From NCBI RefSeq assembly GCF_021245725.1, contig NZ_JAJGSX010000003.1:806001-870000 (forward strand): a stretch of 64,000 nt of DNA. Reading direction: 5' to 3'. The stretch's first letter is position 1; each line of letters begins with the position of its first letter. This document shows, piece after piece, positions 14,601 through 43,756 of the stretch. The notes under the pieces were generated by a model. It saw nothing but the letters and a program-made list of their open reading frames with translations. It did not search any database and had not been told where the DNA came from. The translations under genes and the position numbers were made by a program. This DNA comes from Pseudonocardia sp. TRM90224 (GTDB lineage: Bacteria > Actinomycetota > Actinomycetes > Mycobacteriales > Pseudonocardiaceae).

Positions 14601-14670
14601 ACTTCCCCACCGTTTTGCCAACCTGCACGCCGTTTCGCCCGTGCAGGTTGGCAAAACGGTGGGGAACTTC
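14601..14670. repeat. Family A palindrome, copy 1
   Basis: Bases 14603-14629 pair perfectly with 14640-14666 (27-bp arms, 10-base loop). The arms carry TTCCCCACCGTTTTGCC followed by AACCTGCAC. The copy fills the space between the convergent PPOX and purU genes, and the purU stop (14669-14671) begins two bases past the arm. This is the symmetric subtype A1. Confidence 0.95.
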
Positions 14671-15589
14671 AGCGGAAGACGACGGTCTTGTTGCCGTGGA
14701 CGAGCACCCGGTCCTCCAGGTGCCAGCGCAGGCCGCGGCTGAGCACGAGCCGTTCGATGTCGCGCCCGCGGCGCACCATGTCGGCGGCCGTGTCGCCGTG
14801 GTCGACCCGGATCACGTCCTGCTCGATGATCGGGCCGGCGTCCAGGTCGGGCGTCACGTAGTGGCAGGTCGCGCCGATCAGCTTGACGCCGCGCGCGTAC
14901 GCCTGGTGGTACGGCCGGGCGCCGACGAACGACGGCAGGAAGCTGTGGTGGATGTTGATCGCCCGGCGGGCCCACCGCTCGCACAGCTGCGGCGGCAGGA
15001 TCTGCATGAACCGCGCCAGCACGATCGCGTCCGGGCTGTGCTTCTCGACGAGGTCGGTGAGCTCGGCGAACGCCTTCGCCTTCGCCGCCGCTCTGCTGCC
15101 GTTGCCCGGCAACGGGAAGTCGACGTGGTGGAACGGCACGTCGTGGGCGCGCACGATGTCGCCTAGCGAGTCGTGGTTGCCGATCACGGCGTCGAGCTCG
15201 ACGGGCAGCTCACCCGCCGTCACCCGGCCCAGCAGGTCGTGGAGGCAGTGCGACTCCTTGCTGACCAGCACGACGGCCCGCTTCGGTTCGCCGGTGTCGG
15301 TCACCCGCCAGTCGGCGTTGCCGCCCAGCTCCGCCGCGACCTCGGCGAACCGCTGCCGCAGCTCCGTCGCGTCGAACGACAGCGAGTCGGCGCGCACGAC
15401 CTGCCGCGTGAAGAACCAGCCCGTCGCGGGGTCGGAGTGGTAACCGGCCTCGACGATCCAGCCGCCGGCTTCGGCGAGGAACCCGGAGATCCTCGCGACG
15501 ATGCCGGTGGTGTCGGGGCAGGCCAGCGTGATGACGTACTGCCGTTCCGGTGCTGCGTCCACGGGCGTCAGTGCTCCTTCGACATCCAT
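14669..15589 (-). CDS. purU: Formyltetrahydrofolate deformylase
   Basis: A 306-residue enzyme that hydrolyses 10-formyl-THF to THF and formate, balancing one-carbon pools for purine synthesis. It has an N-terminal ACT domain (YVITLACPDTTGIVARISGFL) and a formyltransferase domain with AVIGNHDSL, the catalytic set NIHHSFLPSFVGARPYHQA, and a late TCHYVTPDLDAGPIIEQD. The Asn and His of NIHH and the later Asp are the usual active-site residues. The start region overlaps the end of the DUF2505 gene by 22 bases. Confidence 0.95.
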   Translation of the reverse strand: MDVEGALTPVDAAPERQYVITLACPDTTGIVARISGFLAEAGGWIVEAGYHSDPATGWFFTRQVVRADSLSFDATELRQRFAEVAAELGGNADWRVTDTGEPKRAVVLVSKESHCLHDLLGRVTAGELPVELDAVIGNHDSLGDIVRAHDVPFHHVDFPLPGNGSRAAAKAKAFAELTDLVEKHSPDAIVLARFMQILPPQLCERWARRAINIHHSFLPSFVGARPYHQAYARGVKLIGATCHYVTPDLDAGPIIEQDVIRVDHGDTAADMVRRGRDIERLVLSRGLRWHLEDRVLVHGNKTVVFR

Positions 15590-16071
15590 TCGGTCGCGAA
15601 CTTGACCTCGGCCACCAGCAGGTTCTTGATCTGCTCGGCGACGAATCCCTCGATCCGGCCCCCGAAGATGGGCACGTTGACCGAGACCGCGACGTTCACC
15701 CGGAAGTCCGAGCCGCCCGGGGCGTCCACCAGCTCCATCCCGCCCGACGCCGAACCCGGCATCGCCCGCACCGAGACCTCGACGGTGCCGGCGTAGCTGC
15801 CCGGCCCGCGGCGGCTCCAGGTCTCCGACCGTTCGATCTCCAGGTCGCCCGGCAGGAAGCTGCGCAGCGCCGACGGGACGTCACGCGAGTCGATGCCGTG
15901 CCGCAGCCGGTAGCGGGCGCTCTGCTCATCGGCCTGGTGCTCGAGCAGCGCCGCGTTCTTGCCGCCGAGCTGCGCGAGGCGGGCGTTGAGATAGGCGGGA
16001 TCGACCAAGGTCGCGTAGGCGGCGTCGGCCGGCTTGGGGAACGACGACCGGAAGTCGAGCGGACTGGCCAT
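15568..16071 (-). CDS. DUF2505 family protein (Rv0481c-like)
   Basis: A 167-residue protein starting MASPLDFRSSFPKPADAAYATLVDPAYL. DUF2505 proteins resemble the START/SRPBCC fold and probably bind a hydrophobic ligand, and the alternating beta pattern (VEVSVRAMPG, FRVNVAVSVNVPIFGGRIEG) fits. It is divergent from murB, the order I recall for Rv0481c-Rv0482 in mycobacteria. Its stop lies inside purU (22-base overlap), so the two leftward genes are probably co-transcribed. Confidence 0.8.
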   Translation of the reverse strand: MASPLDFRSSFPKPADAAYATLVDPAYLNARLAQLGGKNAALLEHQADEQSARYRLRHGIDSRDVPSALRSFLPGDLEIERSETWSRRGPGSYAGTVEVSVRAMPGSASGGMELVDAPGGSDFRVNVAVSVNVPIFGGRIEGFVAEQIKNLLVAEVKFATEWMSKEH

Positions 16072-16144
16072 GGGCGCAGACCATACTTGACCACCAGGTA
16101 CCAGCTGCTGACCGCCGCCGACGGGTGCGGACGGCCCGGCTACG

Positions 16145-17194
16145 GTGCATGGCGTGCCTGCTTCCGACCTCGCCGCCGTGCCGCTCGCGCCGCTGACGAC
16201 GCTGCGGATGGGCGGCCCGGCGCGCCGGTTCGTCGAGGCGACCACCGCGGAGGCCGTCGTCGAGGAGATCCGGGCCGCCGACGCCGCGCAGGAGCCGGTG
16301 CTGCTGCTCGGCGGCGGCTCCAACGTCGTGATCGCCGATTCCGGCTGGCCCGGCACGGTCGTCCGGGTCGCGAGCACGGGCCGCCGGATCGACCGCAACC
16401 CCGACGGTGGGCTGCTGCTCACCGTCGAGGCGGGCGAGGACTGGGACGAGGTCGTCGCGGGCTGCGTCGCCGACGGCGTCGGCGGGCTGGAATGCCTTTC
16501 CGGCATTCCCGGGCGGACGGGCGCGACGCCGGTGCAGAACGTCGGCGCGTACGGCGTCGAGGTGTCGGAGCTGCTCGTCGACGTCGACCTCTACGACCGG
16601 CGCGCCGACGTCGTCCGCTCCCACGTCCCCGCCGCCGAGCTGGGCCTCGGCTACCGCACGAGCACGTTGAAGGGTCGGTCCGACGCGATCGTCCTGCGGG
16701 TGCGGTTCGCGCTGCCCGGCGGCGCGCGGAGCGCCCCGATCGCGTATGCGGAACTGGCGCGCACGCTCGGCGTCGAGACCGGCGCGACGGTACCGACGCA
16801 CGTCGCCCGGGAAGCGGTGCTCGGCCTGCGCCAGGGGAAGGGCATGGTGCTCGACGCCGCCGACCACGACACGTGGAGCGCCGGCTCGTTCTTCACCAAC
16901 CCGATCGTTCCCGAGTCGCAGGCGCCGGAGGGCGCCCCGCGGTGGCCGGCCGGCGCGGGCCTGGTGAAGCTGCCCGCGGCGTGGCTCATCGAGCGCTCGG
17001 GGTTCCGCCGCGGCCATCCCGGCCCTGGTGGACGGGTTGCGCTGTCCGGGCGGCATGTGCTTGCGCTCACGAACCGCGGTGCCGGCACGACGGCCGACCT
17101 GTTGGCCCTCGCGACGGAGGTCCGGGACGGCGCCCGCCGCGAGACGGGCATCGAGCTGCGCCCCGAACCGGTGCTGATCGGCTGTGATCTTTGA
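16145..17194 (+). CDS. murB: UDP-N-acetylmuramate dehydrogenase
   Basis: A protein of about 349 residues that reduces UDP-GlcNAc-enolpyruvate to UDP-MurNAc in peptidoglycan synthesis. The FAD-binding region shows TTLRMGGPARRFVEA, LLLGGGSNVVIAD and GLECLSGIPGRTGATPVQNVGAYG. The catalytic serine lies in SAGSFFTNPIV, and the C-terminal IERSGFRRGHPG follows. Start choice is between GTG 16145 and GTG 16154 (VPASDLAAVPLAPLTTLR). It lies beside the L,D-transpeptidase gene as in Rv0482-Rv0483. Confidence 0.96.
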   Translation: MHGVPASDLAAVPLAPLTTLRMGGPARRFVEATTAEAVVEEIRAADAAQEPVLLLGGGSNVVIADSGWPGTVVRVASTGRRIDRNPDGGLLLTVEAGEDWDEVVAGCVADGVGGLECLSGIPGRTGATPVQNVGAYGVEVSELLVDVDLYDRRADVVRSHVPAAELGLGYRTSTLKGRSDAIVLRVRFALPGGARSAPIAYAELARTLGVETGATVPTHVAREAVLGLRQGKGMVLDAADHDTWSAGSFFTNPIVPESQAPEGAPRWPAGAGLVKLPAAWLIERSGFRRGHPGPGGRVALSGRHVLALTNRGAGTTADLLALATEVRDGARRETGIELRPEPVLIGCDL

Positions 17195-17262
17195 CAACGA
17201 TGGTGGCCTCGCGGCGTCGGTAGCCTCGAAGAGAGCCTTCGGGCGAAAGGGGACGACCAACG

Positions 17263-18429
17263 ATGCGCCGCATCCTGCTACTGCTCGCCGTGATCCTCGT
17301 GGGATCGGTCGGCGTGGTCACCGCCGTGGCCGCCGCCGGCGGCAGCGGTCTCCCGCAGGTGCTGCCACCGCCCGTCCCGCCCGCGGTGGTGACCTACACG
17401 CCGGCCGCGGGTGCCGCCGACGTCGATGCCGCCGCGCCGGCGTCGGTCACGGTTCAGGAGGGGACCTTCGAGGAGGTCACGCTCACCGCCGAGGGCGCAC
17501 CCGCCGAAGGCGCCCTCAACGCCGAGCGCACGCAGTGGAGCAGTACGGCGCCGCTCGCCGCCGGCACGTCCTACACCTGGGGCGGCACCGTCAAGGGCCG
17601 CGACGGCAACACCGTGCCGTTGCAGGGCTCGTTCGCGACGAAGGCGCCGTCGAGGCTCGTGCGGGGCACGCTCAACATCGGCGACGGGCGCACGGTCGGG
17701 GTCGCGGCCCCGATCCGCATCCAGTTCAACTCCCACGTCACCGACCGGGCGGCCGTCGAGCGCGCGCTGACCATCACCACGTCGGTGCCGGTCGAGGGCT
17801 CGTGGGGCTGGCTCCCCGACGAGGGCGGCGGCTCCCGGGTCGACTACCGGCCCAAGGAGTACTGGCCCACGGGGACGAAGGTGACGGTCACCGCGAAGCT
17901 GCGCGGCGTCAATTACGGCGACGACGCTGCGGGTGCCGCTGACATCTCCTCGACGTTCCGCATCGGCTCCGCGCAGGTCGTGAAGGCCGACGTGAACAGC
18001 CACCGCATGATCGTCATGCGGGACGGCGTGCAGGTCGCCGACTTCCCCGCCAGCTACGGCCTGGCGTCCGACCCCGAGCGCAACACCCGCTCCGGCATCC
18101 ACGTGGTCAGCGAGAAGTTCACCGACAAGCGCATGGTGAGCGAGCGCTACGACTACGACCTGATCGAGAAGTGGGCCGTCCGGATCAGCAACAACGGCGA
18201 GTTCATCCACGCCAACCCGGCCTCGGCCGGCGCGCAGGGCTCCGCGAACGTCACGCACGGGTGCGTCAACCTCTCGATCGAGGACGCCGAGGCGTACTAC
18301 AACATGGCGCAGTACGGCGACCCCGTCGAGGTCACGGGCACCCCGATCGCGCTCTCGGCGCGCGACGGCGACATCTGGGACTGGACGTTGAGCTGGGAGC
18401 AGTGGAAGGCGCTCTCCGCGCTCGACTGA
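17263..18429 (+). CDS. L,D-transpeptidase (LprQ/Ldt-like)
   Basis: A 388-residue exported enzyme that forms 3-3 cross-links in peptidoglycan. It has an N-terminal signal or anchor helix (residues 1-26), Ig-like beta domains (about 40-230) and a C-terminal YkuD catalytic domain. His316, and the THGCVN motif with Cys334 as nucleophile, are present with normal spacing. Unlike M. tuberculosis LprQ, I see no lipobox cysteine after the hydrophobic stretch, so it is probably a secreted or membrane-anchored protein rather than a lipoprotein. It follows murB by 68 bases. Confidence 0.92.
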   Translation: MRRILLLLAVILVGSVGVVTAVAAAGGSGLPQVLPPPVPPAVVTYTPAAGAADVDAAAPASVTVQEGTFEEVTLTAEGAPAEGALNAERTQWSSTAPLAAGTSYTWGGTVKGRDGNTVPLQGSFATKAPSRLVRGTLNIGDGRTVGVAAPIRIQFNSHVTDRAAVERALTITTSVPVEGSWGWLPDEGGGSRVDYRPKEYWPTGTKVTVTAKLRGVNYGDDAAGAADISSTFRIGSAQVVKADVNSHRMIVMRDGVQVADFPASYGLASDPERNTRSGIHVVSEKFTDKRMVSERYDYDLIEKWAVRISNNGEFIHANPASAGAQGSANVTHGCVNLSIEDAEAYYNMAQYGDPVEVTGTPIALSARDGDIWDWTLSWEQWKALSALD

Positions 18430-18458
18430 ACCGGGGCGCGGGCGGGTACGGATCTGGC

Positions 18459-18674
18459 ATGCGACCCGACGAGCTGGGACAGCAGATCAACAGCCGTGCC
18501 GAACCGCTGCCGGAGGAACGAGCGGCCGAGCACGGCGACGAGGACCGCCGCGCGGAGGCGGCGGAGATCCTGCGCGACTCGGAGGAGCGGGTCGAGGAGG
18601 CCGTCGACGCCCCGACGCCCGGCGACGCGGCCGACGAGTCGCGCAGCAGCGCGGAAACCACCCCACCCCCGTAG
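18459..18674 (+). CDS. Small acidic hypothetical protein
   Basis: A 71-residue, very hydrophilic protein rich in Glu, Ala, Arg and Asp (MRPDELGQQINSRAEPLPEE). It contains AEILRDSEERVEEAVDAP, a motif seen in short actinobacterial proteins of unknown role. It starts 29 bases after the L,D-transpeptidase stop. The ribosome binding site is weak. Its stop codon abuts the first of three family A palindromes. Function unknown. Confidence 0.55.
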   Translation: MRPDELGQQINSRAEPLPEERAAEHGDEDRRAEAAEILRDSEERVEEAVDAPTPGDAADESRSSAETTPPP

Positions 18675-18744
18675 AACTTCCCCACCGTTTTGTGCACCTG
18701 CGCGCCCGTACGGCGCGCATCCGCCCAAAACGGTGGGGAAGTTC
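18674..18744. repeat. Family A palindrome, copy 2 (subtype A2)
   Basis: Outer arms 18674-18691 and 18727-18744 are perfect 18-bp inverted repeats (GAACTTCCCCACCGTTTT). Inside them the sequence differs from subtype A1. The left side reads GTGCACCTG and the right side CATCCGCCC, unpaired, around an inner TGCGCGCC/GGCGCGCA stem. Confidence 0.92.
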
Positions 18745-18790
18745 GGGCCGGCTCGACCCAGTGGGGTGACCGCAAGCACGCCGGAGCGCA

Positions 18791-18862
18791 GAAGTTGCCC
18801 ACCGTTTTGCCAACCTGCACACCCGCAAGGCCGTGCAGGTTGGCAAAACGGTGGGGAAGTTG
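18791..18862. repeat. Family A palindrome, copy 3 (subtype A1)
   Basis: The second of three clustered copies. The arms share ACCGTTTTGCCAACCTGCAC and its complement, with one change in the left outer arm (TTGCCC for TTCCCC). It lies 46 bases after copy 2, in the same convergent gap. Confidence 0.92.
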
Positions 18863-18876
18863 GGGGCCGGCCACGG

Positions 18877-18945
18877 AGTTCCCCATCGTTTTGGGCACTT
18901 GCGCGCCTGCGGAGCGCGCATCCACCCAAAACGGTGGGGAAGTTG
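18877..18945. repeat. Family A palindrome, copy 4 (subtype A2)
   Basis: The third clustered copy. The left arm has drifted (AGTTCCCCATCGTTTTG), while the right arm keeps AAAACGGTGGGGAAGTT. The interior is GGGCACTTGCGCGCC...GCGCGCATCCACCC, as in copies 2 and 6. It ends ten bases before the SDR stop codon. Confidence 0.9.
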
Positions 18946-18955
18946 CGCCTGAGCC

Positions 18956-19693
18956 TCAGGCCTCCCGGTAGGCGCGGGTGGCGCTGGCCTGCGCGCGGGG
19001 CTTCACGACGATCTGGTCGAGGTTGACGTTGCTGGGGCGGGTGGCGGCGAACGCGATGACGTCGGCGATGTCGTCGGCGGTCAGCGGCGTGATGCCCTTG
19101 TAGACATCCGCCGCGCGTTGCGCGTCGCCGTCGAACCTGACCAGCGAGAAGTCGGTCTCCACCATCCCCGGCAGGATCTCCGTCAGCCGGACGGGCTGCC
19201 CGAGCAGCTCGCCGCGCAGAGTGCGGTGCAGAACGCCCTGCGCATGCTTCGCGCCGGTGTAGCCGGCGCCGTTGTCGTAGATCTCGACGCCCGCGATCGA
19301 CGTGACGGTGACGATGTGGCCGTCGCCGGAGGCGATCAGGGCCGGCAGCAGCGCCTTTGTGACCCGCAGCGTGCCCAGCACGTTCGTCTCGAACATCCAC
19401 CGCCAGTCGTCCTCGTCGGCCTGCGCCACCGGTTCGAGACCCTTCGCCCCGCCGGCGTTGTTGACCAGCAGCTTCGCGTCGGGGACGGCCGCAGCGAAGG
19501 CGTCGACCGACTCGTTGTCGGTGACGTCGAGCCGCACCGCCGTGCCGTCGATCTCGGCGGCGATCTCGGCGCAGCGGTCGACCCTGCGGGCCCCGAGCAC
19601 GACGTGGAACCCGGACTTCGCGAGCGCTCGGGCGGTGGCGGCGCCGATGCCCGAACTGGCTCCGGTCACGACAGCGGTGGGGCGCTCAGTCAT
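18956..19693 (-). CDS. Short-chain dehydrogenase/reductase (Rv0484c-like)
   Basis: A 245-residue classical SDR oxidoreductase. It has the TGASSGIG cofactor-binding motif (residues about 10-17), NNAG, the catalytic serine in TVTSIAG, and YTGAKH in place of YxxxK. NADP preference is likely from GARRVDR after the second beta strand. It is convergent with the L,D-transpeptidase gene, the same order as Rv0483/Rv0484c. The substrate is unknown. Confidence 0.9.
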   Translation of the reverse strand: MTERPTAVVTGASSGIGAATARALAKSGFHVVLGARRVDRCAEIAAEIDGTAVRLDVTDNESVDAFAAAVPDAKLLVNNAGGAKGLEPVAQADEDDWRWMFETNVLGTLRVTKALLPALIASGDGHIVTVTSIAGVEIYDNGAGYTGAKHAQGVLHRTLRGELLGQPVRLTEILPGMVETDFSLVRFDGDAQRAADVYKGITPLTADDIADVIAFAATRPSNVNLDQIVVKPRAQASATRAYREA

Positions 19694-19714
19694 GCGACCA
19701 GCCTAGATCGATCG

Positions 19715-19966
19715 CTACTCCACGCCCTGTTGCGCCGTCCGGGACCCGCGCCGCGCCGCCGCCCGCTGCCATGTGAAGACACCCCAGCCGAACGCACCGA
19801 GCCCGGCCCCGGCGACGCACGTGGTGAACCAGATGTCGAGCGGCCACGCCCCCACCAGCCACGCCACCAGCAGCACCACCGCGCCGACCAGCCACACCGT
19901 CGTACCGATGGCGATGACGGTGCTCACGCGGCTGAACCGGGCCGGCAGTGGTGGAGGTTCGATCAC
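19715..19966 (-). CDS. DUF2530 family membrane protein
   Basis: An 83-residue protein beginning MIEPPPLPARFSRVS, with two membrane helices (TVIAIGTTVWLVGAVVLLVAWLVG and IWFTTCVAGAGLGAFGWGVF) and a basic C-terminus. The N-terminal PPPLP motif and helix spacing match DUF2530. It is divergent from the NCS2 permease gene. Function unknown. Confidence 0.8.
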   Translation of the reverse strand: MIEPPPLPARFSRVSTVIAIGTTVWLVGAVVLLVAWLVGAWPLDIWFTTCVAGAGLGAFGWGVFTWQRAAARRGSRTAQQGVE

Positions 19967-20007
19967 GACTCGAGTCTATGGCGCTGATCAGCCCTTACGG
20001 TGTGCGC

Positions 20008-21441
20008 GTGATCGAGAGACTGTTCCGGGTGTCCGAGCGCGGGTCGAGCGTGGGGCGCGAGCTGCGCGGTGGGCTCGTCACCTTCGTCACGATGGCCTAC
20101 ATCGTCGTGCTGAACCCGCTGATCGTCGGCAGCTTCGCCCCGTCGGGCCCGGGCGCGAAGACGGACGCGCTCGGCAACGTCCTGGGTGTGTCGCAGGTGG
20201 CGGCCGTCACGGCGCTGGTGGCGGGCGTGATGACGATCCTGATGGGTCTCATCGCCAACTACCCGTTCGCGATCGCCACCGGCCTGGGCATCAACGCGTT
20301 CGTCGTCTTCACGATCGCGCCGCTGATGAGCTGGCCGGAGGCGATGGGCCTGGTCGTCGTCGACGGCATCATCGTCTTCGCGCTCGCCGCGACCGGCTTC
20401 CGCACCGCGGTGTTCAACGTGATCCCGCCCTCGCTGAAGGCCGCGATCGCGGTCGGGATCGGCCTTTTCATCGCGTTCATCGGGTTCGTCGACGCCGGGT
20501 TCGTCCGCCGCATCGCCGACGCCGCCAACACGACGGTCCCGGTGGGGCTGGGCATCGCCAACTCGATCGCGTCGTGGCCGACCTTCGTCTTCTGCGTCGG
20601 GCTGCTGGTCACGGGGCTGCTGGTCGCCCGCGGCGTCCGTGCCGGCCTGCTCATCGGGGTCGCGATCACGACCGTGCTCGCGATCGTCGTCGAAGCGATC
20701 GTGCAGGTCGGGCCGTCGCGCGGGACCGACCCGCAGGGCTGGTCGCTCTCGGTGCCGACGCTGCCGGAGAGCATCATCGGCCTGCCCGACCTCTCGCTCG
20801 TCGGCTCGTTCTCCTTCGGCGCGTTCATCCACGTCGACCTGCTGACGGTGCTGCTGCTCGTGTTCACGCTCGTGCTCGCCGACTTCTTCGACACGATGGG
20901 CACCGTCACCGGCCTCGGCAAGCAGGCCGAGCTCATGTCGAAGGACGGGCAGCTGCCGGGCATCGGCAAGGTGCTGATGGTCGACGCGGCGGCAGCCGTC
21001 GCCGGCGGCGCCGCGTCGAGCTCGTCGAACACCGTCTACATCGAGTCGGCCTCCGGCATCGCCGAGGGCGCGCGCACCGGCCTCGCGAACGTGCTGACCG
21101 GCGTGCTGTTCCTGCTCGCGATGTTCTTCACGCCGCTCTACACGATCGTCCCGATCGAGGCGGCCGCCCCGGCGCTGGTGGTGGTCGGCGCGCTGATGAT
21201 GCGGCAGATCACCGAGATCGACTTCTCGGAGCTGCGCATCGCGCTGCCGGCGTTCCTGACGATCGTGGTGATGCCGTTCACGTACTCGATCGCCAACGGC
21301 ATCGGCGCGGGCTTCGTCTCCTACGTCGTGATCGCCGCCGCGACGGGCCGGGCGCGCACCATCCACCCGCTGATGTGGGTGATCTCGGTGGCCTTCGTCG
21401 GGTACTTCGCGATCGGCCCGATCCAAGCTCTCTTCGCGTAG
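20008..21441 (+). CDS. NCS2 family permease (AzgA-type purine transporter)
   Basis: A protein of about 477 residues with 12-14 membrane segments. Family signatures are GGLVTFVTMAYIVVLNP near the start, TGLGINAF, DFFDTMGTVTGLGKQAEL and SSSSNTVYIESASGIAEGARTG. Members import adenine, guanine or hypoxanthine with protons. The GTG at 20008 (VIERLFRVSERG) gives the usual N-terminus. An ATG at 19978 would add ten residues and is the alternative. The DUF2530 gene is divergent. Confidence 0.88.
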   Translation: MIERLFRVSERGSSVGRELRGGLVTFVTMAYIVVLNPLIVGSFAPSGPGAKTDALGNVLGVSQVAAVTALVAGVMTILMGLIANYPFAIATGLGINAFVVFTIAPLMSWPEAMGLVVVDGIIVFALAATGFRTAVFNVIPPSLKAAIAVGIGLFIAFIGFVDAGFVRRIADAANTTVPVGLGIANSIASWPTFVFCVGLLVTGLLVARGVRAGLLIGVAITTVLAIVVEAIVQVGPSRGTDPQGWSLSVPTLPESIIGLPDLSLVGSFSFGAFIHVDLLTVLLLVFTLVLADFFDTMGTVTGLGKQAELMSKDGQLPGIGKVLMVDAAAAVAGGAASSSSNTVYIESASGIAEGARTGLANVLTGVLFLLAMFFTPLYTIVPIEAAAPALVVVGALMMRQITEIDFSELRIALPAFLTIVVMPFTYSIANGIGAGFVSYVVIAAATGRARTIHPLMWVISVAFVGYFAIGPIQALFA

Positions 21442-21457
21442 CCCTTGCCATCAGAAG

Positions 21458-21476
21458 AGAGGTTAGGCTAACCTTT
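21458..21476. promoter_or_regulatory. DtxR/IdeR-type iron box
   Basis: AGAGGTTAGGCTAACCTTT matches the iron-box consensus TTAGGTTAGGCTAACCTAA at 15 of 19 positions, including the whole central 15 bases. A possible -35 TTGCCA (21445-21450) and -10 TAACCT (21469-21474), 18 bases apart, would place the box over the -10 element, the usual position for iron-dependent repression. The next gene downstream is the AhpD-like gene at 21647. Confidence 0.75.
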
Positions 21477-21646
21477 GCTCGTCGCTTCGTGGTGGGAGCG
21501 GCGCGTCAGTTCGGGAAACGGTATCGGGGTCCTGGCCTACGGGCCAGGGCCCCGATCCGCGTTTCCGGCGCCTGTCACATCTCCGTCGTGCGTTCCGTCA
21601 GACCAGTAACGGCCGGATCGACCGGCCCAACGGGAGGACAGGAACC
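21477..21646 (+). other. Leader with a long hairpin before the AhpD-like gene
   Basis: These 170 bases between the iron box and the AhpD-like start hold one long imperfect hairpin. GGAAACG (21514-21520) and CGTTTCC (21560-21566) flank an inner stem formed by TCGGGGTCCTGGCC and GGCCAGGGCCCCGA around TACG. It could terminate the permease transcript or attenuate the iron-regulated one. An AGGACAGGAACC sequence before the ATG supplies the ribosome binding site. Confidence 0.5.
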
Positions 21647-22108
21647 ATGGAAGCTCGGATGCAGAACCCGGCGATGGTCGTTCCCGGCGCGATGCAGGCA
21701 CTGCTCGCGCTGGCCAAGTCGGCCGAGAAGGCCGGTGACGTGCCGCACGTGATCCACAAGATGGCGCACCTGCGCGCCAGCCAGATCAACGGCTGCAGCG
21801 TGTGCGTCCACATGCACGCGGCCGAGCTGCGGCAGGCCGGGGAGCCGGCCGAGCGCATCGACACGATCAGCGCGTGGCGCGACGCGCCGTTCTTCACCGA
21901 AGCCGAGCGCGCGGCGCTCGCGCTGACCGAGGAGGTGACGGTGCTCGCCGGCCGCAGCGACGCGGTCTCCGAGGACGTGTGGCTGGAAGCCCGCAAGCAC
22001 TTCGACGAGGAGTCGGTCGCGGGCCTGATCCTCTCGGTTGCCGCCGTCAACGTGTGGAACCGGCTCAACGCCGCCACCCGCCAGGTCGCGGGCGCCTGGA
22101 AGGGCTAG
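21647..22108 (+). CDS. Carboxymuconolactone decarboxylase / AhpD-like protein
   Basis: A 153-residue AhpD-fold protein with the redox motif CSVCVHMHA (residues about 45-53), the CxxC-xxxHA signature of peroxide-reducing family members rather than of the lactone decarboxylase itself. It is expected to act as a thiol peroxidase or disulphide reductase. It stands alone, 205 bases after the permease stop, behind an iron box. Iron-limited induction would link it to oxidative or iron stress. Confidence 0.85.
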   Translation: MEARMQNPAMVVPGAMQALLALAKSAEKAGDVPHVIHKMAHLRASQINGCSVCVHMHAAELRQAGEPAERIDTISAWRDAPFFTEAERAALALTEEVTVLAGRSDAVSEDVWLEARKHFDEESVAGLILSVAAVNVWNRLNAATRQVAGAWKG

Positions 22109-22149
22109 GACGAACCTGCGTCGAGGGCCGGAACCGCGAGGGTGTTGGG

Positions 22150-22208
22150 GAGGGCAGGAAAGCCACTTTCCGGCCCTGTGAGGGCCGGAAAGTGGCTTTC
22201 CTGCCCTC
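22150..22208. repeat. Family B palindrome, site 3
   Basis: Perfect 28-bp arms (22150-22177 and 22181-22208) flank a three-base loop, the best-preserved copy in the window. It lies between the convergent AhpD-like and GH16 genes. Confidence 0.95.
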
Positions 22209-22257
22209 GCACGCGGGCACGTATCCCGGCTGCCCATGACGCGCGCCCAGTAGCCAG

Positions 22258-23388
22258 CTAGCGCCACGAGAAGATGCGACGCACGGTGTCGCTGACGTCG
22301 TCGTCCGCCTCTTCCGCCGGTTCGGCGTCCGGGGCCTCGGTCTCGGGGGTATCGGAGGCCTCGCTCTCCGTCGTTCCGGGTTCGGTCGTCTCAGGTTGCG
22401 GGGTCCGGGTCGGCTCCGGCCGCGCCGCCTGGCCGGGCTCGAACGGGTACTGCCGGACCCAGTCGACCTGCATGCTCGACTCCTTGACGGCCGCGGTGCC
22501 GTCCCCGGGGAACCAGTCGAGCTGGACGCACAGGTGCATCGGGCCGCTGGGGATGATCGCCTTGTCGGTGGTGCGGAACCACTCCTCGCCGTCGAGGTAG
22601 GTGACGATCGCATCGGGCCCCCACTCGACGGCCCAGTTGTGCCAGGTGCTCGCATCGACCTCGACCGAGCCGTCGACCTGCGCGTTCTTCTCGCCGTAGT
22701 GCACGAAGGCCTTCGTCGTGCGGCGGGCGGGATCCTGCATCTCCATGAAGTCGATCTCGCCGCCGGAGGGGAAGTCGTCGGCGTCGGGCCAGAGCAGGAG
22801 CAGCGCGTTGTAGGAGGGGTCGGCCGCGGGCGCCCGCACCCGACCCTCCCACCGGCCGTACTTCTGGCCCGGCATCCACGCCATACCGCCCGTCGTGCCC
22901 TGCGCGTCGCCGGTGATCGTGAGGATCCCGCCCTCGCGCGACACCGCGGCCGGCGACCGCTTGCCCTTCCCGGCGTGCCCCGTGCCGTCGTAGAGGCGCC
23001 AGTCGCCGCCGTCCGCGTCGAAGGTCTCCTCGCGGGAGGGCGCGCCCCAGCCGAGCTTCGCCGCTGCGGTGGAACCTTCCTCCCCGCTGGGTGACGGCGC
23101 GGCGGCGGGATCGGTGTCGGCGGCGCCGGTGTGGTCCTGCTCCGGTTCTGCCGTGGGGGACGGCGGTCCGCTGCGGACGGGCGGCTCCGACCGATCAGGC
23201 TTCTTCCCACGTGAAGTCGGCGTTGTGGATGGACCTGTGGATGGACTTGTCGATGGTTCTGGGGTGATCGTCACCACCGACGGCGCGCCGGCCTCGTTCG
23301 TCGTCCCGTCGCCGGCGAACACGACCACGACGGCGACCCCGGTCGCGAGGTACTTCTTGACCAGCTCCTCGATCTCGTCGAACGTCAT
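22258..23388 (-). CDS. Secreted glycoside hydrolase family 16 protein
   Basis: A 376-residue protein. A short N-terminus (MTFDEIEELVKKYLATGVAVVVVF) is followed by a Thr/Pro/Ser-rich linker (about 35-95), a GH16 beta-glucanase fold, and an acidic Glu/Thr/Pro tail. The catalytic motif is GEIDFMEM near residue 208, with both acidic residues of the ExDxxE signature. Substrates in GH16 are beta-1,3/1,4-glucans, agarose or similar. The N-terminus looks like a membrane anchor rather than a cleavable signal. It is the last gene of a five-gene leftward operon and starts two bases after the previous stop. Confidence 0.85.
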   Translation of the reverse strand: MTFDEIEELVKKYLATGVAVVVVFAGDGTTNEAGAPSVVTITPEPSTSPSTGPSTTPTSRGKKPDRSEPPVRSGPPSPTAEPEQDHTGAADTDPAAAPSPSGEEGSTAAAKLGWGAPSREETFDADGGDWRLYDGTGHAGKGKRSPAAVSREGGILTITGDAQGTTGGMAWMPGQKYGRWEGRVRAPAADPSYNALLLLWPDADDFPSGGEIDFMEMQDPARRTTKAFVHYGEKNAQVDGSVEVDASTWHNWAVEWGPDAIVTYLDGEEWFRTTDKAIIPSGPMHLCVQLDWFPGDGTAAVKESSMQVDWVRQYPFEPGQAARPEPTRTPQPETTEPGTTESEASDTPETEAPDAEPAEEADDDVSDTVRRIFSWR

Positions 23389-23390
23389 CG

Positions 23391-23963
23391 TCAGCCTTCC
23401 CCTGCTGGTAGGTCGGTGGTGGCGGCGGAGTCGACGGCAACGAGCCAGCGCCCGTCCGGCTGCCGGACGAGCACGACGTGGCGGGCCGCCGTCGTGAACG
23501 CGTAGGGCCCGCCCGGCGGCCCGGTGGCCGTGCCGAGCTCGGCGCGGTAGCCGCGACACAGGCCGTCGGGGTCGCTCGCGACCAGCCGCATCGCGGTGAC
23601 GGTGGCGGTGCGTTGCGTCCCTGGCGGCGGCGGGTCGAGCACTACCGTGCCGACCGTCCCGGCGGCGCTGCCCGGCTCGGCGTACGGGGCGCCGCGCAGA
23701 TGGGTACGGCCGCGGTCCGCGGCTTCGACCGTGTGCGCTGCTGCGAGGAACGCCCGCCCGACCGCCTCGGGATCGGACATGTCGACGTCCGGGTCGGCTT
23801 GCGGCGGATCGGCACCGCGCTCGACGGGGATCGCCGCGATGGCGTCGCGGTCCTCGTTGCTCACCACCGGCGGCCGCTCGGCCGGACCTGCGCCGCCGAG
23901 CAGCGCGAGTGCCGCGATCGTGACGGCGAGGGCCGTCAGCGCGGCGAGCACGGGTCGGCTCAT
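23391..23963 (-). CDS. Secreted or anchored hypothetical protein
   Basis: A 190-residue protein with an N-terminal hydrophobic segment (ALTALAVTIAALALLGGAG) and an extracytoplasmic domain that ends VVLVRQPDGRWLVAVDS. The latter resembles the mixed alpha/beta accessory domains found beside conjugation proteins. I do not recognise the family. It lies between the lytic-transglycosylase-like gene (4-base gap) and the GH16 gene (2-base gap), so it is certainly in the same transcript. Confidence 0.6.
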   Translation of the reverse strand: MSRPVLAALTALAVTIAALALLGGAGPAERPPVVSNEDRDAIAAIPVERGADPPQADPDVDMSDPEAVGRAFLAAAHTVEAADRGRTHLRGAPYAEPGSAAGTVGTVVLDPPPPGTQRTATVTAMRLVASDPDGLCRGYRAELGTATGPPGGPYAFTTAARHVVLVRQPDGRWLVAVDSAATTDLPAGEG

Positions 23964-23967
23964 GGCG

Positions 23968-25086
23968 TCACTCCCGGAAGCTCACGTGGACGTGGTCGAA
24001 GTGTCCGCCGGTGGCGTTCGAGGTGTCGTAGACCCCGCCGCCGGTGTAGCGGCGGCCCCACGCGCCGTCGTCGTCCGCGACGCCGGGGTCCCAGTAGCGG
24101 CCCTGCCAGATCAGGTATCCGACGCGGAGCGGTTCGGCGTGCTCCCGGAACCAGCCGACGACCCGCCACCCCGCCTCCAGCTCGGCACCCTTCGCGAACG
24201 TTCCCGGCGCGGTGGCGAAGAGGTCGCAGGCGCGGCCCCGGGAGTGGTCGCTCCTCGGGTTCCACGCGTGCTCGTCCCAGCACCCCGCCGAACGGATCAC
24301 CGGGCCGCCGCTCCAGCTGCCGAACGCGGCCTCGGCCGCTTCGAGACCGTGGCGCGTCGCGCCGGTGAGGCACCCGTCGCCGGTGGGGTCGGGCGGCTGG
24401 CAACCCGTCGCCCCGCCGGTCCAGGCGGCCGGCGCGGCGAGCGATGGCGCATGCAGCGCGGGTGCCGTGGCGGCGGTGAACCGCTCGACGTTGGCCCGCA
24501 CCGCGCCGATGTACCGGGCGATCACGGCGGCGCAGCGCGCGGAGCACCCGGCCTCGCCGGCCACCGGCACGCCCGTCGCGCTGCCGGTGACCCGGCCGCA
24601 GCCGGCGATGTGGCAGACGAGCATCGCGTCGAGCGGGTCGGCCGGCTTGCCCGTAGCGGTGAGGTGCGCGGCGGCGGCGCGCAGGTTCGCGCAGATCCAC
24701 GGCACGGCGACCCGCAGGTGCGCCTCGGTGGTGAGCACGTCGGAGCCGGCCGCGGGCGGATCGCTCGCCCACGGCGTACCCCCGGCGGCCTGCCAGGTGC
24801 GCTGCCCGAACTGGAAGAGCCCCGCCGGTCGACCTGCGGCGTCGCCGTGCAGGCCGGGGTCCCAGCCCGACTCGGCCTGCACGTGCGACACCACCCACAC
24901 CGGCGGCAGCTCGGGACACCCGTCGGAGGTCAGCTCGACGATCAGCGGCAGCATCTCGCGGGCCAGTGCCGGCACCTTCGGGGAGTCGACGCCCGATGCC
25001 GCCACGCCCGTGCCGCCCGGTCCGGGCGGCATCAGGCCGGTCACAGTGGCGACCAGAGCTGCGACCAGGGCCGCGAGCACACGCAC
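23968..25086 (-). CDS. Lytic transglycosylase / peptidase-like secreted protein
   Basis: A 372-residue exported protein. After a signal peptide (residues 1-22), the segment SHVQAESGWDPGLHGDAAG with GLFQFGQRTWQ looks like a goose-lysozyme/SLT-type transglycosylase domain, with Glu in AESGW as the probable catalytic acid. The C-terminal part has a DHSRGRACDLF and HFDHVHVSF pair. This is the metal-binding pattern of the ARB_07466-like/M15-related domain. Such bifunctional wall hydrolases commonly open peptidoglycan for conjugation machines. It is the third gene of the five-gene operon. Confidence 0.75.
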   Translation of the reverse strand: MRVLAALVAALVATVTGLMPPGPGGTGVAASGVDSPKVPALAREMLPLIVELTSDGCPELPPVWVVSHVQAESGWDPGLHGDAAGRPAGLFQFGQRTWQAAGGTPWASDPPAAGSDVLTTEAHLRVAVPWICANLRAAAAHLTATGKPADPLDAMLVCHIAGCGRVTGSATGVPVAGEAGCSARCAAVIARYIGAVRANVERFTAATAPALHAPSLAAPAAWTGGATGCQPPDPTGDGCLTGATRHGLEAAEAAFGSWSGGPVIRSAGCWDEHAWNPRSDHSRGRACDLFATAPGTFAKGAELEAGWRVVGWFREHAEPLRVGYLIWQGRYWDPGVADDDGAWGRRYTGGGVYDTSNATGGHFDHVHVSFRE

Positions 25087-25093
25087 CGGCCGC

Positions 25094-25615
25094 TCACCCG
25101 GCCCGTCCCGGCTGCTCGCGCTCGACCGGTTGCAGCCCTCGCCAAAGCACCGCGGGGCGTGGCCGGATCACCATCGGCGGAACGGCGCTCTCCAGCTGGC
25201 CGGAGCCGAGCACAGCCGCGACGATCCGGCGCAGCGCGTCGGCCAGCACCCGCAGCTGCGGGGTGAGCGTCGCGACGTCGCGGCCGAGGACGAGCGCGGC
25301 GTCCGCGGGCGGCCCGCTCGCCCGGGCCCACTCGGGAATGTGGGGCAGCAGCACAACGGCGCCGAAGCGGTGGCTGAGCGTCTCCAGCGACGGCTCCTCG
25401 GCACCGCGGACCGGCACGACGGCCAGCACAGGACGCGGTCCCGACGGTGGGAAAGCCACCACACGGGCGAGGCGCAGCGCCTCCGGGTGCGCGCCACAGG
25501 CCAGCACGTCGGCGTGCTGGTCGCGATGGCCTGCGTCGACGGCGTGCAGGGCGGCCGCGAGCGTGCTGGCGCCGGAACCCCTGCTGAGGCCGGTCACCTG
25601 CGGGATCCTCGTCAC
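25094..25615 (-). CDS. MinD/ParA-like protein with degenerate Walker A
   Basis: A protein of about 173 residues. VTGLSRGSGASTLAAAL resembles the deviant Walker A of ParA/MinD proteins, but the usual signature lysines are missing (SRGSGAST for KGGVGKT). VVLLPHIPEWAR may correspond to a later strand. Short proteins of this sort accompany actinobacterial conjugation gene sets. The start is GTG at 25615 or 25618, overlapping the preceding gene's stop. ATP binding is doubtful. Confidence 0.55.
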   Translation of the reverse strand: MTRIPQVTGLSRGSGASTLAAALHAVDAGHRDQHADVLACGAHPEALRLARVVAFPPSGPRPVLAVVPVRGAEEPSLETLSHRFGAVVLLPHIPEWARASGPPADAALVLGRDVATLTPQLRVLADALRRIVAAVLGSGQLESAVPPMVIRPRPAVLWRGLQPVEREQPGRAG

Positions 25616-26412
25616 CACGGGCCTCCGGCGAGCTGCTGCTCGGCGATCGGGTCGTCGTCGGCCAGGGCGTGGTCGCTCCGGCCGGGTGCGGGAGGCGGGT
25701 CCGGTTCCTCGCCGAGGGTCTCCTCCCAGGCGTCGACGACGAGCCGGCCGCCGCTGAGCACCACCGGGACGCTCAGCCGGATCCAGTACGCCGCGAGGCT
25801 GCGCCACCCACGTCCGGTCGGCGGCGGCGCGACGGCGGGGACGCCCGCGATGTCCGGTTCGCGCTCCGGCTCGGCAGGGGGCTCCGCGCGCTTCCCGACG
25901 AGGCGGTACGGCGTGACGCGCACCCGCACGTCGACGAGCACCCGCCCGTCACCGTCGGGGCGGACCAGCCCGGTGAGCGCAAAATCGGCCCGCTGCCGGC
26001 CGGTGCCCGACCAGCCCAGCCGGGCGGGGTCGCTGCCGGGTGCGGAGAGGTGGTCGGTGAGCACCCGGCCCCGGCGCTGCGGATCCTCCTCGTCCCACGA
26101 GAGGTAGTCGACGGCGAACGCACCGGCGAGCGCGGCGGCCTCGGCGGGGTCGGGCCTCGGCGCCACCCCGTCGGGCATGCGCGGCGCGGGGATGGGTGGG
26201 AAGCCGGTGGGGTCGGTCGGCGGGTCGGCGTAGGGGTTGTGCGGTGTGGCAGGCCTCGTGGGGCGGACTGCCGGGCCGCTGCCGGGCGGGGGCGGCGGCG
26301 GTCGGTGTGGGGGCGGGCCGGGTGGGCCGACGCGAACCGGGAAGCCCGGTGGCGGCGCGGGCGGTTCCGCCTGCGCGCGGCCGAAGAGGCGGAATCGTGG
26401 CACGGCGATCAT
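25612..26412 (-). CDS. Proline-rich protein, possibly TcpC/conjugation-like
   Basis: A protein of about 266 residues. The N-terminal third is extremely proline-rich (PPPHRPPPPPPGSGP near residues 30-45). The C-terminal half has FAVDYLSWDEEDPQRR, VRVRVTPYRLVG and WIRLSVPVVLSGGRLVVDAWE. That is a cystatin/NTF2-like pattern reminiscent of TcpC-type conjugal transfer proteins. No membrane helix is obvious, which is unlike TcpC itself. The start at ATG 26412 (MIAVPRFRLFG) is uncertain. It is the first gene of the operon that ends with GH16. Confidence 0.5.
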   Translation of the reverse strand: MIAVPRFRLFGRAQAEPPAPPPGFPVRVGPPGPPPHRPPPPPPGSGPAVRPTRPATPHNPYADPPTDPTGFPPIPAPRMPDGVAPRPDPAEAAALAGAFAVDYLSWDEEDPQRRGRVLTDHLSAPGSDPARLGWSGTGRQRADFALTGLVRPDGDGRVLVDVRVRVTPYRLVGKRAEPPAEPEREPDIAGVPAVAPPPTGRGWRSLAAYWIRLSVPVVLSGGRLVVDAWEETLGEEPDPPPAPGRSDHALADDDPIAEQQLAGGPW

Positions 26413-26582
26413 CGCCGGTGCCGGATGCGATGTGCGGACATGGGCTCCCCCGGATGCCGGTGCGGTGGCGGTAGCCACCGCGAACGGCTCGACCGTAGGA
26501 ACGCGCTAGGAGGCCGTGTGCCGGAAACGGGAACAGCGTTTGCGATAGCGAACGGGTGCCGTCAGAAGGTCCGCACGGGGTG

Positions 26583-26637
26583 TGCCTGGAAAGCCACCTT
26601 CCCGGCCTCAGGCGCCTGGAAAGTGGCTTTCCAGGCA
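26583..26637. repeat. Family B palindrome, site 4
   Basis: Fifteen-base perfect outer arms (26583-26597 and 26623-26637, TGCCTGGAAAGCCAC) with a partly paired 25-base interior. It lies 20 bases after the 3' end of the leftward ligase gene and before the five-gene operon on the same strand, so here it separates tandem rather than convergent genes. Confidence 0.88.
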
Positions 26638-26656
26638 ACCCTCGGGGCGCCTCGCG

Positions 26657-28162: not shown

Positions 28163-28337
28163 GCGTGTGCTGCCTCCCTGACCCGGGCCTGACCCGGACC
28201 ATGGCTGCCCACGCTCGTGGTGACGAGCGGTGGCCTTCGGTCGGGGTTGTCCACCGTGACACACGGTCGACCTTGCCGCTACGGCTGTCCGGATGACGGG
28301 TACATCGCGCTGATCACAACCTGGAACGATTCGACCT

Positions 28338-29144
28338 GTGGCGTTCGAGACGACGATCGACGACCCGGCGGACCCGCTGGTGGACGACTACCGCGACCTG
28401 ACGGCAGCGGACCGCCGTCCGGATCGGCCCGGCGGGCGTGGGCTCGTCATCGCGGAGGGTGTCGTCGTGGTGCGCCGGCTCATCGACTCGCCGTTCCCGG
28501 TGCGGTCGGTGCTCGGCGTCCCGCGGCGCCTCGCCGACCTGGCTGACGATCTTGCGCCGCTGGACGTGCCGGCGTTCGCCCTCGACGCCGACACGATGGC
28601 GACGGTGGTCGGGTTCCACCTGAACCGAGGGGTGCTCGCGGTCGCCGACCGGGCCGTCCAGCCCGCGGCCGCCGAGCTCGCCCGCACCGCCGGGACGCTG
28701 GCCGTGCTGGAGGGCGTGAACGACCACGAGAACCTCGGGTCGGTCTTCCGCAACGCCGCTGCGCTCGGCGTCGACGGTGTGCTGCTCGGGCCGCGGTGCG
28801 CCGACCCGCTCTACCGCCGCAGCGTCCGCGTGTCGATGGGGCACGTGCTGCGGGTCCCGTTCGCGGAGCTGCCCGGCGAATGGCCCGCCTCGCTCGACGT
28901 GCTGCGTGCGGCCGGGCTGCGTGTTGCGGCGCTCACGCCGGCTGCCGACGCCGTCCCGATCGGTCGGGCGGGCCTCGACGGGCAGCGGGTCGCGTTGCTG
29001 CTCGGCGCGGAAGGCCCGGGGCTGACGGCGGAGGCGCTGGCGGCGGCCGATCTGCGCGTGCGCATCCCGATGGCGTCGGGCGTCGACTCGCTCAACGTCG
29101 CGACGGCCGCCGCCGTCGCGTTCCACGCGGTCGCCACGCCATGA
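28338..29144 (+). CDS. SPOUT family RNA 2'-O-methyltransferase (TrmH/SpoU-like)
   Basis: A 268-residue protein with the three SPOUT motifs: NDHENLGSVFRNAAALGVDGVLL (motif 1), VALLLGAEGPGL (motif 2) and RIPMASGVDSLNVATAAAVAF (motif 3, trefoil knot). It uses SAM to methylate ribose in rRNA or tRNA, and the target is unknown. An N-terminal substrate-recognition segment (about residues 30-85) is present. The start is GTG 28338. The 175-base divergent region upstream shows no clear operator. Confidence 0.88.
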   Translation: MAFETTIDDPADPLVDDYRDLTAADRRPDRPGGRGLVIAEGVVVVRRLIDSPFPVRSVLGVPRRLADLADDLAPLDVPAFALDADTMATVVGFHLNRGVLAVADRAVQPAAAELARTAGTLAVLEGVNDHENLGSVFRNAAALGVDGVLLGPRCADPLYRRSVRVSMGHVLRVPFAELPGEWPASLDVLRAAGLRVAALTPAADAVPIGRAGLDGQRVALLLGAEGPGLTAEALAAADLRVRIPMASGVDSLNVATAAAVAFHAVATP

Positions 29145-29951: not shown

Positions 29952-30021
29952 AAGTTCCCCACCGTTTTGCCAACCTGCATGCCCTGGAAGGTGTGCAGGT
30001 TGGCAAAACGGTGGGGAAGTT
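29952..30021. repeat. Family A palindrome, copy 5 (subtype A1)
   Basis: Perfect 25-bp arms (29955-29979 and 29994-30018) with a 14-base loop. It ends three bases before the sepH stop codon, between convergent genes. Confidence 0.95.
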
Positions 30022-30023
30022 TG

Positions 30024-31172: not shown

Positions 31173-31381
31173 CGGCGGCCTCCCCGCTCTCTTCTCCCCG
31201 TCCGGGTGACGGTAGTTGCCACCGCAGCTCCGCCGTCGGAGGCGCGCCGGGGCTTTCGCACCCCGCCCGACGTCGGATAACTGCGCACCGCGTGCTTTCG
31301 TGCACGCAGCGTTCCATGACCGTGTCGTCAGATAAAGCTGATGCGGATGTTACCGGTGTGACTACAGAGGGATGGCGGCAG

Positions 31382-34769
<3,388 letters not shown>

Positions 34770-37079: not shown

Positions 37080-37082
37080 CCC

Positions 37083-37154
37083 GAACTTCCCCACCGTTTT
37101 GCCTACTTGCACACGTTCCAGGGTGTGCAGGTTGGCAAAACGGTGGGGAGGTTT
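37083..37154. repeat. Family A palindrome, copy 7 (subtype A1)
   Basis: Arms pair with two internal mismatches (TACTTGCA against TGCAGGTT) and one near the end. The last T of the right arm is the first base of the reverse-strand citA stop codon, so coding and repeat overlap. It lies between the convergent MFS and citA genes. Confidence 0.93.
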
Positions 37155-39448: not shown

Positions 39449-39468
39449 GAGGTGGTAGGTCTGGACGT

Positions 39469-42360: not shown

Positions 42361-42384
42361 ACCTGAGTGTGAGGGAACCTCCAC

Positions 42385-43683
42385 ATGGCCGACGAGAAAA
42401 CCACCGCTGTCCTGCACCACCCCGGCGGTGAGCACGAGATGCAGATCAGCAGCGCCGCCGAGGGAGCGTCCGCCTTCGACATCTCGAAGCTGCTGCCCTC
42501 GACAGGGCTTGTCACACTCGATTCCGGCTACGGGAACACCGCCTCGTGCTCTTCCGCGATCACCTACATCGACGGCGACGCGGGGATCCTGCGTTACCGC
42601 GGGTACCCGATCGACCAGCTCGCCGAGAACTCCACGTTCCTCGAGACGAGCTACCTGCTGATCTACGGGGAGCTGCCGTCGAAATCGGAGCTCGAGGCGT
42701 TCACCACGAAGATCAGCCGGCACACGCTGCTGCACGAGGACCTGAAACGGTTCTTCGACGGCTTCCCGCGTGACGCGCACCCGATGCCGGTGCTCTCCAG
42801 CGCCGTCAGCGCGTTGTCGACCTTCTACCAGGACAGCCTCGACCCCTTCGACTCCGACGCCGTCGAGCTGTCCACCGTCCGCCTTCTCGCCAAGGTCCCG
42901 ACGATCGCGGCGTACGCCTACAAGAAGTCGGTCGGCCAGCCGTTCCTCTACCCCGACAACTCGATCGGGCTGGTGGAGAACTTCCTGCGGCTGACGTTCG
43001 GGTTCCCGGCCGAGCCGTACGAGGTCGATCCCGATTTCGTCCGTGCGCTCGACGTGCTGCTGATCCTGCACGCCGATCACGAGCAGAACTGCTCGACCTC
43101 GACGGTCCGGCTGGTCGGCTCGTCGCACGCCAACCTCTTCGCGAGCATCTCCGCTGGGATAAATGCCCTCTTCGGGCCGCTGCACGGCGGCGCGAACCAG
43201 GCGGTGCTGGAGATGCTGCAGCGCATCCGCGACGAGGAGAACGGCGACGTCGAGAAGTTCGTCGAGCGCGTGAAGAACAAGGAGAAGGGCGCCCGCCTGA
43301 TGGGCTTCGGGCACCGGGTCTACAAGAACTACGACCCGCGCGCGAAGATCGTCAAGCAGAGCGCCGACGAGATCCTCAAGAAGCTCGGCGTGACCGACCC
43401 GCTGCTCGACATCGCGAAGCAGCTGGAGGAGAAGGCGCTCGCCGACGACTACTTCATCGAGCGCAAGCTCTACCCGAACGTCGACTTCTACACCGGCGTC
43501 ATCTACCGGGCGATGGGCTTCCCGACCAAGATGTTCACGGTGCTGTTCGCGCTCGGCCGGCTGCCCGGCTGGATCGCGCAGTGGCGCGAGATGATCAACG
43601 ACCCGACCACGAAGATCGGCCGCCCGCGGCAGCTGTACATCGGCGCCACCGAGCGCGAGTACGTGTCGATGTCGAACCGCTGA
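42385..43683 (+). CDS. gltA: Citrate synthase
   Basis: A 432-residue hexameric-type citrate synthase, the main TCA-cycle entry enzyme. It has the N-terminal beta domain (LLPSTGLVTLDSGYGNTASCSSAITYIDGDAGILRYRGY) and active-site segments LHADHEQNCSTSTVRLVGSS (His), GPLHGGANQAVLEML (His) and ARLMGFGHRVYKNYDPRA. It matches mycobacterial GltA2 (Rv0896) in length and order. A GAGGG box lies upstream of the ATG. Together with citA it gives two citrate synthase paralogues within 7 kb. Confidence 0.96.
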   Translation: MADEKTTAVLHHPGGEHEMQISSAAEGASAFDISKLLPSTGLVTLDSGYGNTASCSSAITYIDGDAGILRYRGYPIDQLAENSTFLETSYLLIYGELPSKSELEAFTTKISRHTLLHEDLKRFFDGFPRDAHPMPVLSSAVSALSTFYQDSLDPFDSDAVELSTVRLLAKVPTIAAYAYKKSVGQPFLYPDNSIGLVENFLRLTFGFPAEPYEVDPDFVRALDVLLILHADHEQNCSTSTVRLVGSSHANLFASISAGINALFGPLHGGANQAVLEMLQRIRDEENGDVEKFVERVKNKEKGARLMGFGHRVYKNYDPRAKIVKQSADEILKKLGVTDPLLDIAKQLEEKALADDYFIERKLYPNVDFYTGVIYRAMGFPTKMFTVLFALGRLPGWIAQWREMINDPTTKIGRPRQLYIGATEREYVSMSNR

Positions 43684-43684
43684 C

Positions 43685-43756
43685 GAACTTCCCCACCGTT
43701 TTGCCAACTTGCACGCCTTTCAGGGTGTGCAAGTAGGCAAAACGGTGGGGAAGTTT
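43685..43756. repeat. Family A palindrome, copy 8 (subtype A1)
   Basis: The copy begins two bases after the gltA stop codon. Arms AACTTCCCCACCGTTTTGCC and complement are perfect except for one internal base. It separates two rightward genes (gltA and photolyase), so it would act as a gltA terminator. Confidence 0.94.

Follow-up and report, generated by a model that had tools for sequence, protein, structure and literature searches.

Why does a 64,000-nt stretch of the Pseudonocardia sp. TRM90224 genome (contig NZ_JAJGSX010000003.1, positions 806,001 to 870,000; hereafter the window) carry eight palindromes built on one core, and why do most of them sit where genes end? The explanation that we favor, at a probability of roughly 0.55, is that they belong to a REP/BIME-like family, here called family A, that is probably mobile without the usual transposase and is kept at gene ends as a two-way 3'-end hairpin. 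Searching the window with TTCCCCACCGTTTT at up to two mismatches returned 16 matches forming eight inverted pairs, all where an initial annotation had placed palindromes, whereas 100 shuffles of the window gave a mean of 0.11 matches. That annotation had also described arms of 16–27 bp; the perfect runs span 14–26 bp in seven of the eight elements, the copy at 18879 being left out of this list for a mismatch within its arm.

The eight elements, to which we assign no strand, comprise five of type I (64 bp) and three of type II (63 bp). One type I element (14603..14666) lies in the convergent gap 14581-14668. The convergent gap 18675-18955 holds a II-I-II triplet, with type II copies first (18678..18740) and last (18879..18941) and a type I copy in the middle (18795..18858). 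Another type I element (29955..30018) is in the convergent gap 29740-30023, with the stop codon of the minus-strand gene 30024-31172 lying 5 nt away and that of the opposing gene some 215 nt away. The remaining type II element (32597..32659) is in the divergent gap 32519-32723, where no stop codon adjoins it. A type I element (37087..37150) fills the convergent gap 37080-37153, which separates an MFS gene from a citrate-synthase-family gene. The last one (43689..43752) is co-directional, following gltA and preceding a photolyase-family gene; its core is 5 nt, and its extended arm 2 nt, past the gltA stop. Our own gene calls, made with an in-house codon-usage script for which starts and short genes are uncertain and stop codons are fixed by frame, thus reproduced the annotated contexts of six convergent copies, one copy 2 nt past the gltA stop and one divergent copy. 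Nine of ten nearby proteins matched Pfam families (an oxidoreductase, a formyltransferase, an L,D-transpeptidase, one DUF and others) and one matched none. An Rfam search of the window at gathering scores gave no match.

In the 9.38-Mb draft assembly (113 contigs, 96.7% complete), the exact 14-mer core occurs 351 + 348 times and a reversed control not once, a copy number far above chance, which the initial annotation had made one test of its proposal. The exact arm pair is present 341 times; scaling this number by the ratio of 102 to 76 seen in a sample puts the whole family at an estimated 458 copies or so. By exact matching, the arm pair was absent from all 389 other genomes of the family (390 genomes, 46 genera) and the core from all 61 sampled congeners, so that the suggestion of a genus-specific family did not hold: among the genomes sampled, family A is found in this one only. 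By gltA comparison and database grouping, the genome falls with Pseudonocardia; among the 80 gltA loci retained, the closest named relatives were Pseudonocardia sp. CNS-004 at 90% and P. oceani at 86%, and a Pseudonocardiales MAG reached 87%. Viral contigs lacked the exact arm pair, and plasmids and phages gave no match to the sole query used, one type I copy.

The anatomy of the family was worked out on 1.19 Mb (~13% of the 9.38-Mb genome) drawn from portions of two contigs, which contained 102 paired copies, 54 of type I and 48 of type II. Their lengths are nearly fixed, at 64 bp (51 copies), 63 bp (47), 62 bp (3) or 65 bp (1), so that 98 of the 102 measure 63 or 64 bp. Type I copies have inner arms such as GCCAACCTGCAC, while those of type II are mixed, starting mostly with GTGCAC, GGGCAC or GGGTGG and continuing into a GCGCGC inner stem. 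A 12-bp arm core (positions 4–15) is unchanged in 184 of 204 halves (105/108 for type I, 79/96 for type II), a conservation that is partly a selection effect, as the sample admits at most three mismatches per 15-nt arm and misses decayed copies. Among ungapped copies, diversity at the 24 core sites is 0.000 for type I (n = 50) and 0.023 for type II (n = 43), against 0.56 and 0.66 at the center. In all ten tandem clusters (copies less than 250 bp apart) the two types alternate (seven II-I, one I-II, two II-I-II); outside clusters, alternation along the chromosome is weak (47/78 vs 39.0; 421/10000 permutations).

The palindromes are imperfect: across 28 pairs, not one of the 93 ungapped copies matches throughout, and the arms of one copy differ more than randomly paired halves (3.5 vs 2.96, 0/5000; 3.91 vs 3.30, 81/5000). 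The copies are also polar: 47 of the 54 type I copies have a GCCAACC half and 35 of the 48 type II copies a GGGTGG half, each usually facing a different half. Selection for pairing alone would not produce such polar, unlike arms, and sequence-specific recognition, either now or at the time of copying, would. The excess of within-copy differences over random pairing, not predicted by base-pairing selection alone, counts against the explanation that we favor. Covariation was not seen in family A.

In the 1.19 Mb we found 12 unpaired arm-like matches, five inside elements and seven elsewhere, all seven with three mismatches, and none at up to two mismatches outside paired elements. A few unpaired arms may exist elsewhere in the genome, since there are 2.05 exact halves for every exact pair in the whole genome, compared with 1.87 in the sampled part. 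DNA uptake sequences are mostly single sites, and inverted pairs at gene ends are also possible, so the placement by itself would suit them; the lack of single half-sites at up to two mismatches in the 1.19 Mb led us to reject them as candidates. Together with chance palindromes of a GC-rich genome, which the 0.11 matches expected per window against 16 found speak against, uptake sequences make up an alternative so improbable that we give it almost no weight.

We then considered where the copies lie relative to genes. Of the 102, 53 are between convergent genes, 41 between co-directional genes and seven between divergent genes, and one is within a called gene. Convergent gaps are clearly over-used, holding 53 of 101 intergenic copies with only 14.8% of the intergenic bases outside family A (P about 1e-18), and the enrichment at convergent 3' ends expected from the initial annotation was thus borne out; divergent gaps are under-used (7 of 101 copies, 28.8% of intergenic bases). 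The distance from stop codon to core has a median of 8 nt and is at most 23 nt in 116 of 147 cases. Among co-directional copies, 31 of 41 are closer to the upstream stop than to the downstream start. For 40 of these 41 the placement could be simulated (one was dropped for lack of room): 32 copies are no more than 20 nt from the upstream stop, where simulation gave 11.0 (0/10000 simulations), and three are equally close to the downstream start, again with 11.0 expected. The association of family A is thus with stop codons and goes beyond a preference for non-coding DNA. Orientation in co-directional gaps showed no clear preference, the constant half being stop-proximal in a ratio of 10:7 for type I and 5:9 for type II. 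The conserved arm sequence and this lack of a clear orientation preference would both fit a site in DNA for a nucleoid protein, gyrase or a chromosome-organizing protein, tolerated at gene ends; a DNA site, however, would require neither the proximity to stop codons nor the scarcity in divergent gaps, and we hold this possibility to be highly doubtful.

What might such an element do behind a stop codon? Predicted RNA folds of the eight copies in the window (both strands for two copies, the plus strand for six) have energies of -45.6 to -61.2 kcal/mol, with z of -7.0 to -13.2. None of the six copies in window positions 14000-33000 overlaps a terminator-like match with a U-tract. We propose that a copy forms a 3'-end hairpin that would work in both directions and would be of the kind lacking a U-tract, and it is plausible, from the geometry, that a single copy ends both convergent transcripts. 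Comparable structures in GC-rich bacteria come from Term-seq data on Streptomyces clavuligerus, in which transcripts end at 'I-shaped' hairpins without a U-tract and in which some ends are bidirectional (PMC8269248). Family A resembles these in being a strong hairpin near gene ends, without a U-tract and in principle acting on two strands; it differs in that the I-shaped ends are not described, in the parts of that report dealing with them, as one conserved-core family repeated hundreds of times.

Of 197 convergent junctions here, 107 have a hairpin with perfect arms of at least 11 bp; in eight congeners the figure is 47 of 215, and their median convergent gaps run from 16.5 to 55, compared with 70 and 74 here. 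Most convergent junctions of the congeners thus do without such a hairpin, so it is not needed there. After gltA, a perfect hairpin arm of at least 12 bp lies within 120 nt in 11 of 29 examined congeners (of 61), in several sequences, none of which can hold the exact family A core, as that core is absent from all 61. These results bear on the idea that the elements are dedicated bidirectional terminators, in which a sequence-specific factor would bind the conserved arms, as DNA or RNA, and stop polymerase arriving from either side, with uniformity maintained by selection. The near-invariant core beside a variable center, the fixed length, the short stop-to-core distance and the mutual exclusion described below all agree with this idea. 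It does not by itself explain the origin of hundreds of copies, no factor was identified, and the absence of the exact pair from 389 relatives, the mostly hairpin-free junctions of the congeners and the lack of a clear co-directional orientation preference argue against it; we consider it rather unlikely.

The same genome contains three further palindrome families. Family B (GGAAAGTGGCTTTCC) has 402 + 419 exact sites here and 1 to 58 in 15 congeners. Family C has 110 exact pairs here and none in 61 congeners. Family D (CGAACGGCACT pairs) has 41 exact pairs here and occurs in 32 of 62 genomes of the genus including this one, with up to 146. Among 121 convergent gaps of at least 50 bp, A is present in 44, B in 29, C in 20 and D in one, so that 93 hold at least one family; ten of the other 28 have some other hairpin. 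In these gaps A, B and C never coincide, with coincidences expected 10.5, 7.3 and 4.8 times (0/5000 permutations), although A may adjoin A and one gap holds both B and D. Co-directional gaps contain A and B together four times, which is the chance level (4.1 expected). The exclusion suggests either that A, B and C have a common function at convergent junctions or that one insertion destroys the target for the next; the second possibility and the chance-level coincidence in co-directional gaps weigh against our favored explanation. Another reading is that the three are interchangeable two-way terminators, each with its own lineage-specific trans-acting factor that binds the arms, swapped wholesale between species, and this we judge distinctly unlikely.

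Family D offers a view of hairpin selection in a related design. Like A, it has a near-fixed length with an outer core and a variable inner part, and it too is found after gltA in some congeners; unlike A, it is 45 bp long in most listed copies, is spread over about half of the genus genomes, and has an inner stem that covaries in a selected set. In 28 sequences that we selected, whose outer 11 pairs were dictated by the pattern searched for, changes were seen on both sides of seven of eight inner pairs, and 91.1% of cells were paired compared with 73.9% in shuffles. The apparent compensatory changes support selection for a hairpin in this similarly designed family, not in family A itself.

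How would family A have reached its present number? At convergent junctions with a family A copy, the gap was longer here than in the relative in 18 of 18 comparisons, which involve only four gaps of this genome (medians 88 and 30). The relatives' gaps ranged from 6 to 109 bp, some hairpin-free and some with other palindromes. In control convergent gaps without A, our genome had the longer gap in only seven of 17 comparisons (seven own gaps). These lengths support, in a small sample of four gaps, a gain by insertion into short convergent gaps. With only 47 of 215 congener junctions having a hairpin, such a hairpin is not essential. At the three co-directional junctions compared, insertion was not supported (own gap longer in four of seven comparisons; medians 168 and 228). 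The failure of this co-directional test, the lack of a U-tract in the six of eight copies scanned and the dispensability of hairpins in congeners all count against our favored explanation.

The Y1 transposase (PF01797) of a RAYT, which the initial annotation had led us to expect, was not found in the draft genome; it occurs in five of 62 genomes of the genus, and the five genomes with most family D pairs all lack it. Conserved ends, a variable interior and a near-fixed length would be expected of a MITE moved by a DDE-type transposase whose own ends share the arm core, and the shorter gaps of relatives at four convergent junctions fit this as well. No longer, autonomous element with family A-like ends was found in the 1.19 Mb, in keeping with the lack there of outside arms at up to two mismatches. 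Nor was there a consistent target duplication over all 101 copies (permutation 39/100); among the 48 copies outside convergent gaps there was an excess at 2 nt (10 vs 3.6, permutation 1/100) that was not significant over the full 101. A MITE seems to us unlikely. That neither a consistent duplication, nor an autonomous partner in the sampled 1.19 Mb, nor a mobilizing enzyme was found also weighs against our favored explanation.

The REP/BIME-like reading, by comparison, draws on a close likeness in anatomy and placement, and the resemblance first proposed stands in these respects. As in the REP and BIME systems treated in PMC3733652 and PMC2817692, family A consists of high-copy imperfect, polar palindromes, several families are species-specific and clusters are made of alternating units. 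The copies lie mainly in convergent and co-directional gaps and close to stop codons, with most convergent copies near both 3' ends; for two REP families, section 15 of PMC3733652 likewise reports that the majority of REPs in convergent gaps lie no more than 20 bp from the 3' end on each side. The clusters differ from BIMEs in that they alternate two inner types, the alternation scored here being one of type. The resemblance fails for length, tags and RAYT linkage. REP elements measure 20–40 bp (PMC3733652), family A 63–64 bp. A GTAG is present at -7..-4 in only 20 of 202 family A flanks, in eight of which it is the TAG stop of the gene, so that a GTAG foot as a RAYT mark is not general, and CGTC is found at any offset in six of 202 12-nt flanks. 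REP-like repeats are usually RAYT-linked and known mainly from Proteobacteria (PMC2817692, PMC3733652), whereas the draft genome has no Y1 transposase; CGTC REPs are themselves said to have no dedicated transposase (PMC3733652), and a 2025 survey also names Actinomycetota species with REP-like repeats (PMC12306157). Given these three mismatches, we regard family A as REP-like in placement, and probably in its working, but not as a member of the tagged REP families.

On this REP/BIME-like reading, family A would have spread within its lineage by insertion into short gene-end gaps, without detectable base duplication, driven by some copying or mobilizing activity other than a Y1/RAYT transposase. 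Copies would persist at gene ends because they are harmless there and probably useful. RNA transcribed across a copy would fold into a hairpin of about 25–33 pairs a short distance past the stop codon. The most likely effect of this hairpin is to halt or pause RNA polymerase, to block 3'-exonucleases, or both, and one copy could serve both convergent genes. What the data show directly is the copy number in this genome, the absence of the exact pair from the other sampled family members, the placement, the anatomy, the predicted hairpin stability and the exclusion of other families from convergent gaps with A; mobility and RNA function are inferred. A literature search limited to titles and abstract openings in a restricted collection returned no account of these palindromes. 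Some 450 RAYT-less copies in a single actinobacterial genome, with exact pairs absent from 389 relatives, and two further families never found in the same large convergent gap as family A or as each other, make this organism a natural system for asking how such repeats spread and whether they end transcripts.

Outside tandem clusters (neighbouring copies <250 bp apart), the two types of family A palindrome, type I (64 bp) and type II (63 bp), alternate along the chromosome marginally more often than expected by chance in the stretches sampled on contigs C1 and C37 of the TRM90224 genome, with 47 of 78 neighbours differing in type vs 39.0 expected (421/10000 permutations). Five II-I tandems of this genome, at C1 335892, 497132 and 586215 and at C37 681826 and 873310, carry GTCCCC in place of TTCCCC at the start of the type I copy.

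Palindromes of family B, which have the GGAAAGTGGCTTTCC core or one close to it, lie in the window at 2226-2276, 5893-5925, 22150-22208, 26583-26637 and 52656-52714. Counted as exact sequence, there are 821 sites in the TRM90224 genome, and 15 of 61 congeners hold 1-58 exact sites each. Family C, found in the window at 54919-54979 (GTCGACAACGACGTT...), has 110 exact pairs across the genome, and no exact pair was found in any of the 61 congeners. The family C centre, TTGTTAGCGCTCACAA, may resemble a LacI-family operator. Among the matches listed, a CGTTTTGG segment is common to family A type II and many family C copies.

Family D, consisting of CGAACGGCACT pairs mostly spanning 45 bp, is genus-wide, occurring for example 3' of gltA at three loci (L098, L103 and L119), with 0 to 146 exact pairs per genome. 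Its inner stem varies among species, and a selected group of sequences shows compensatory pairs there.
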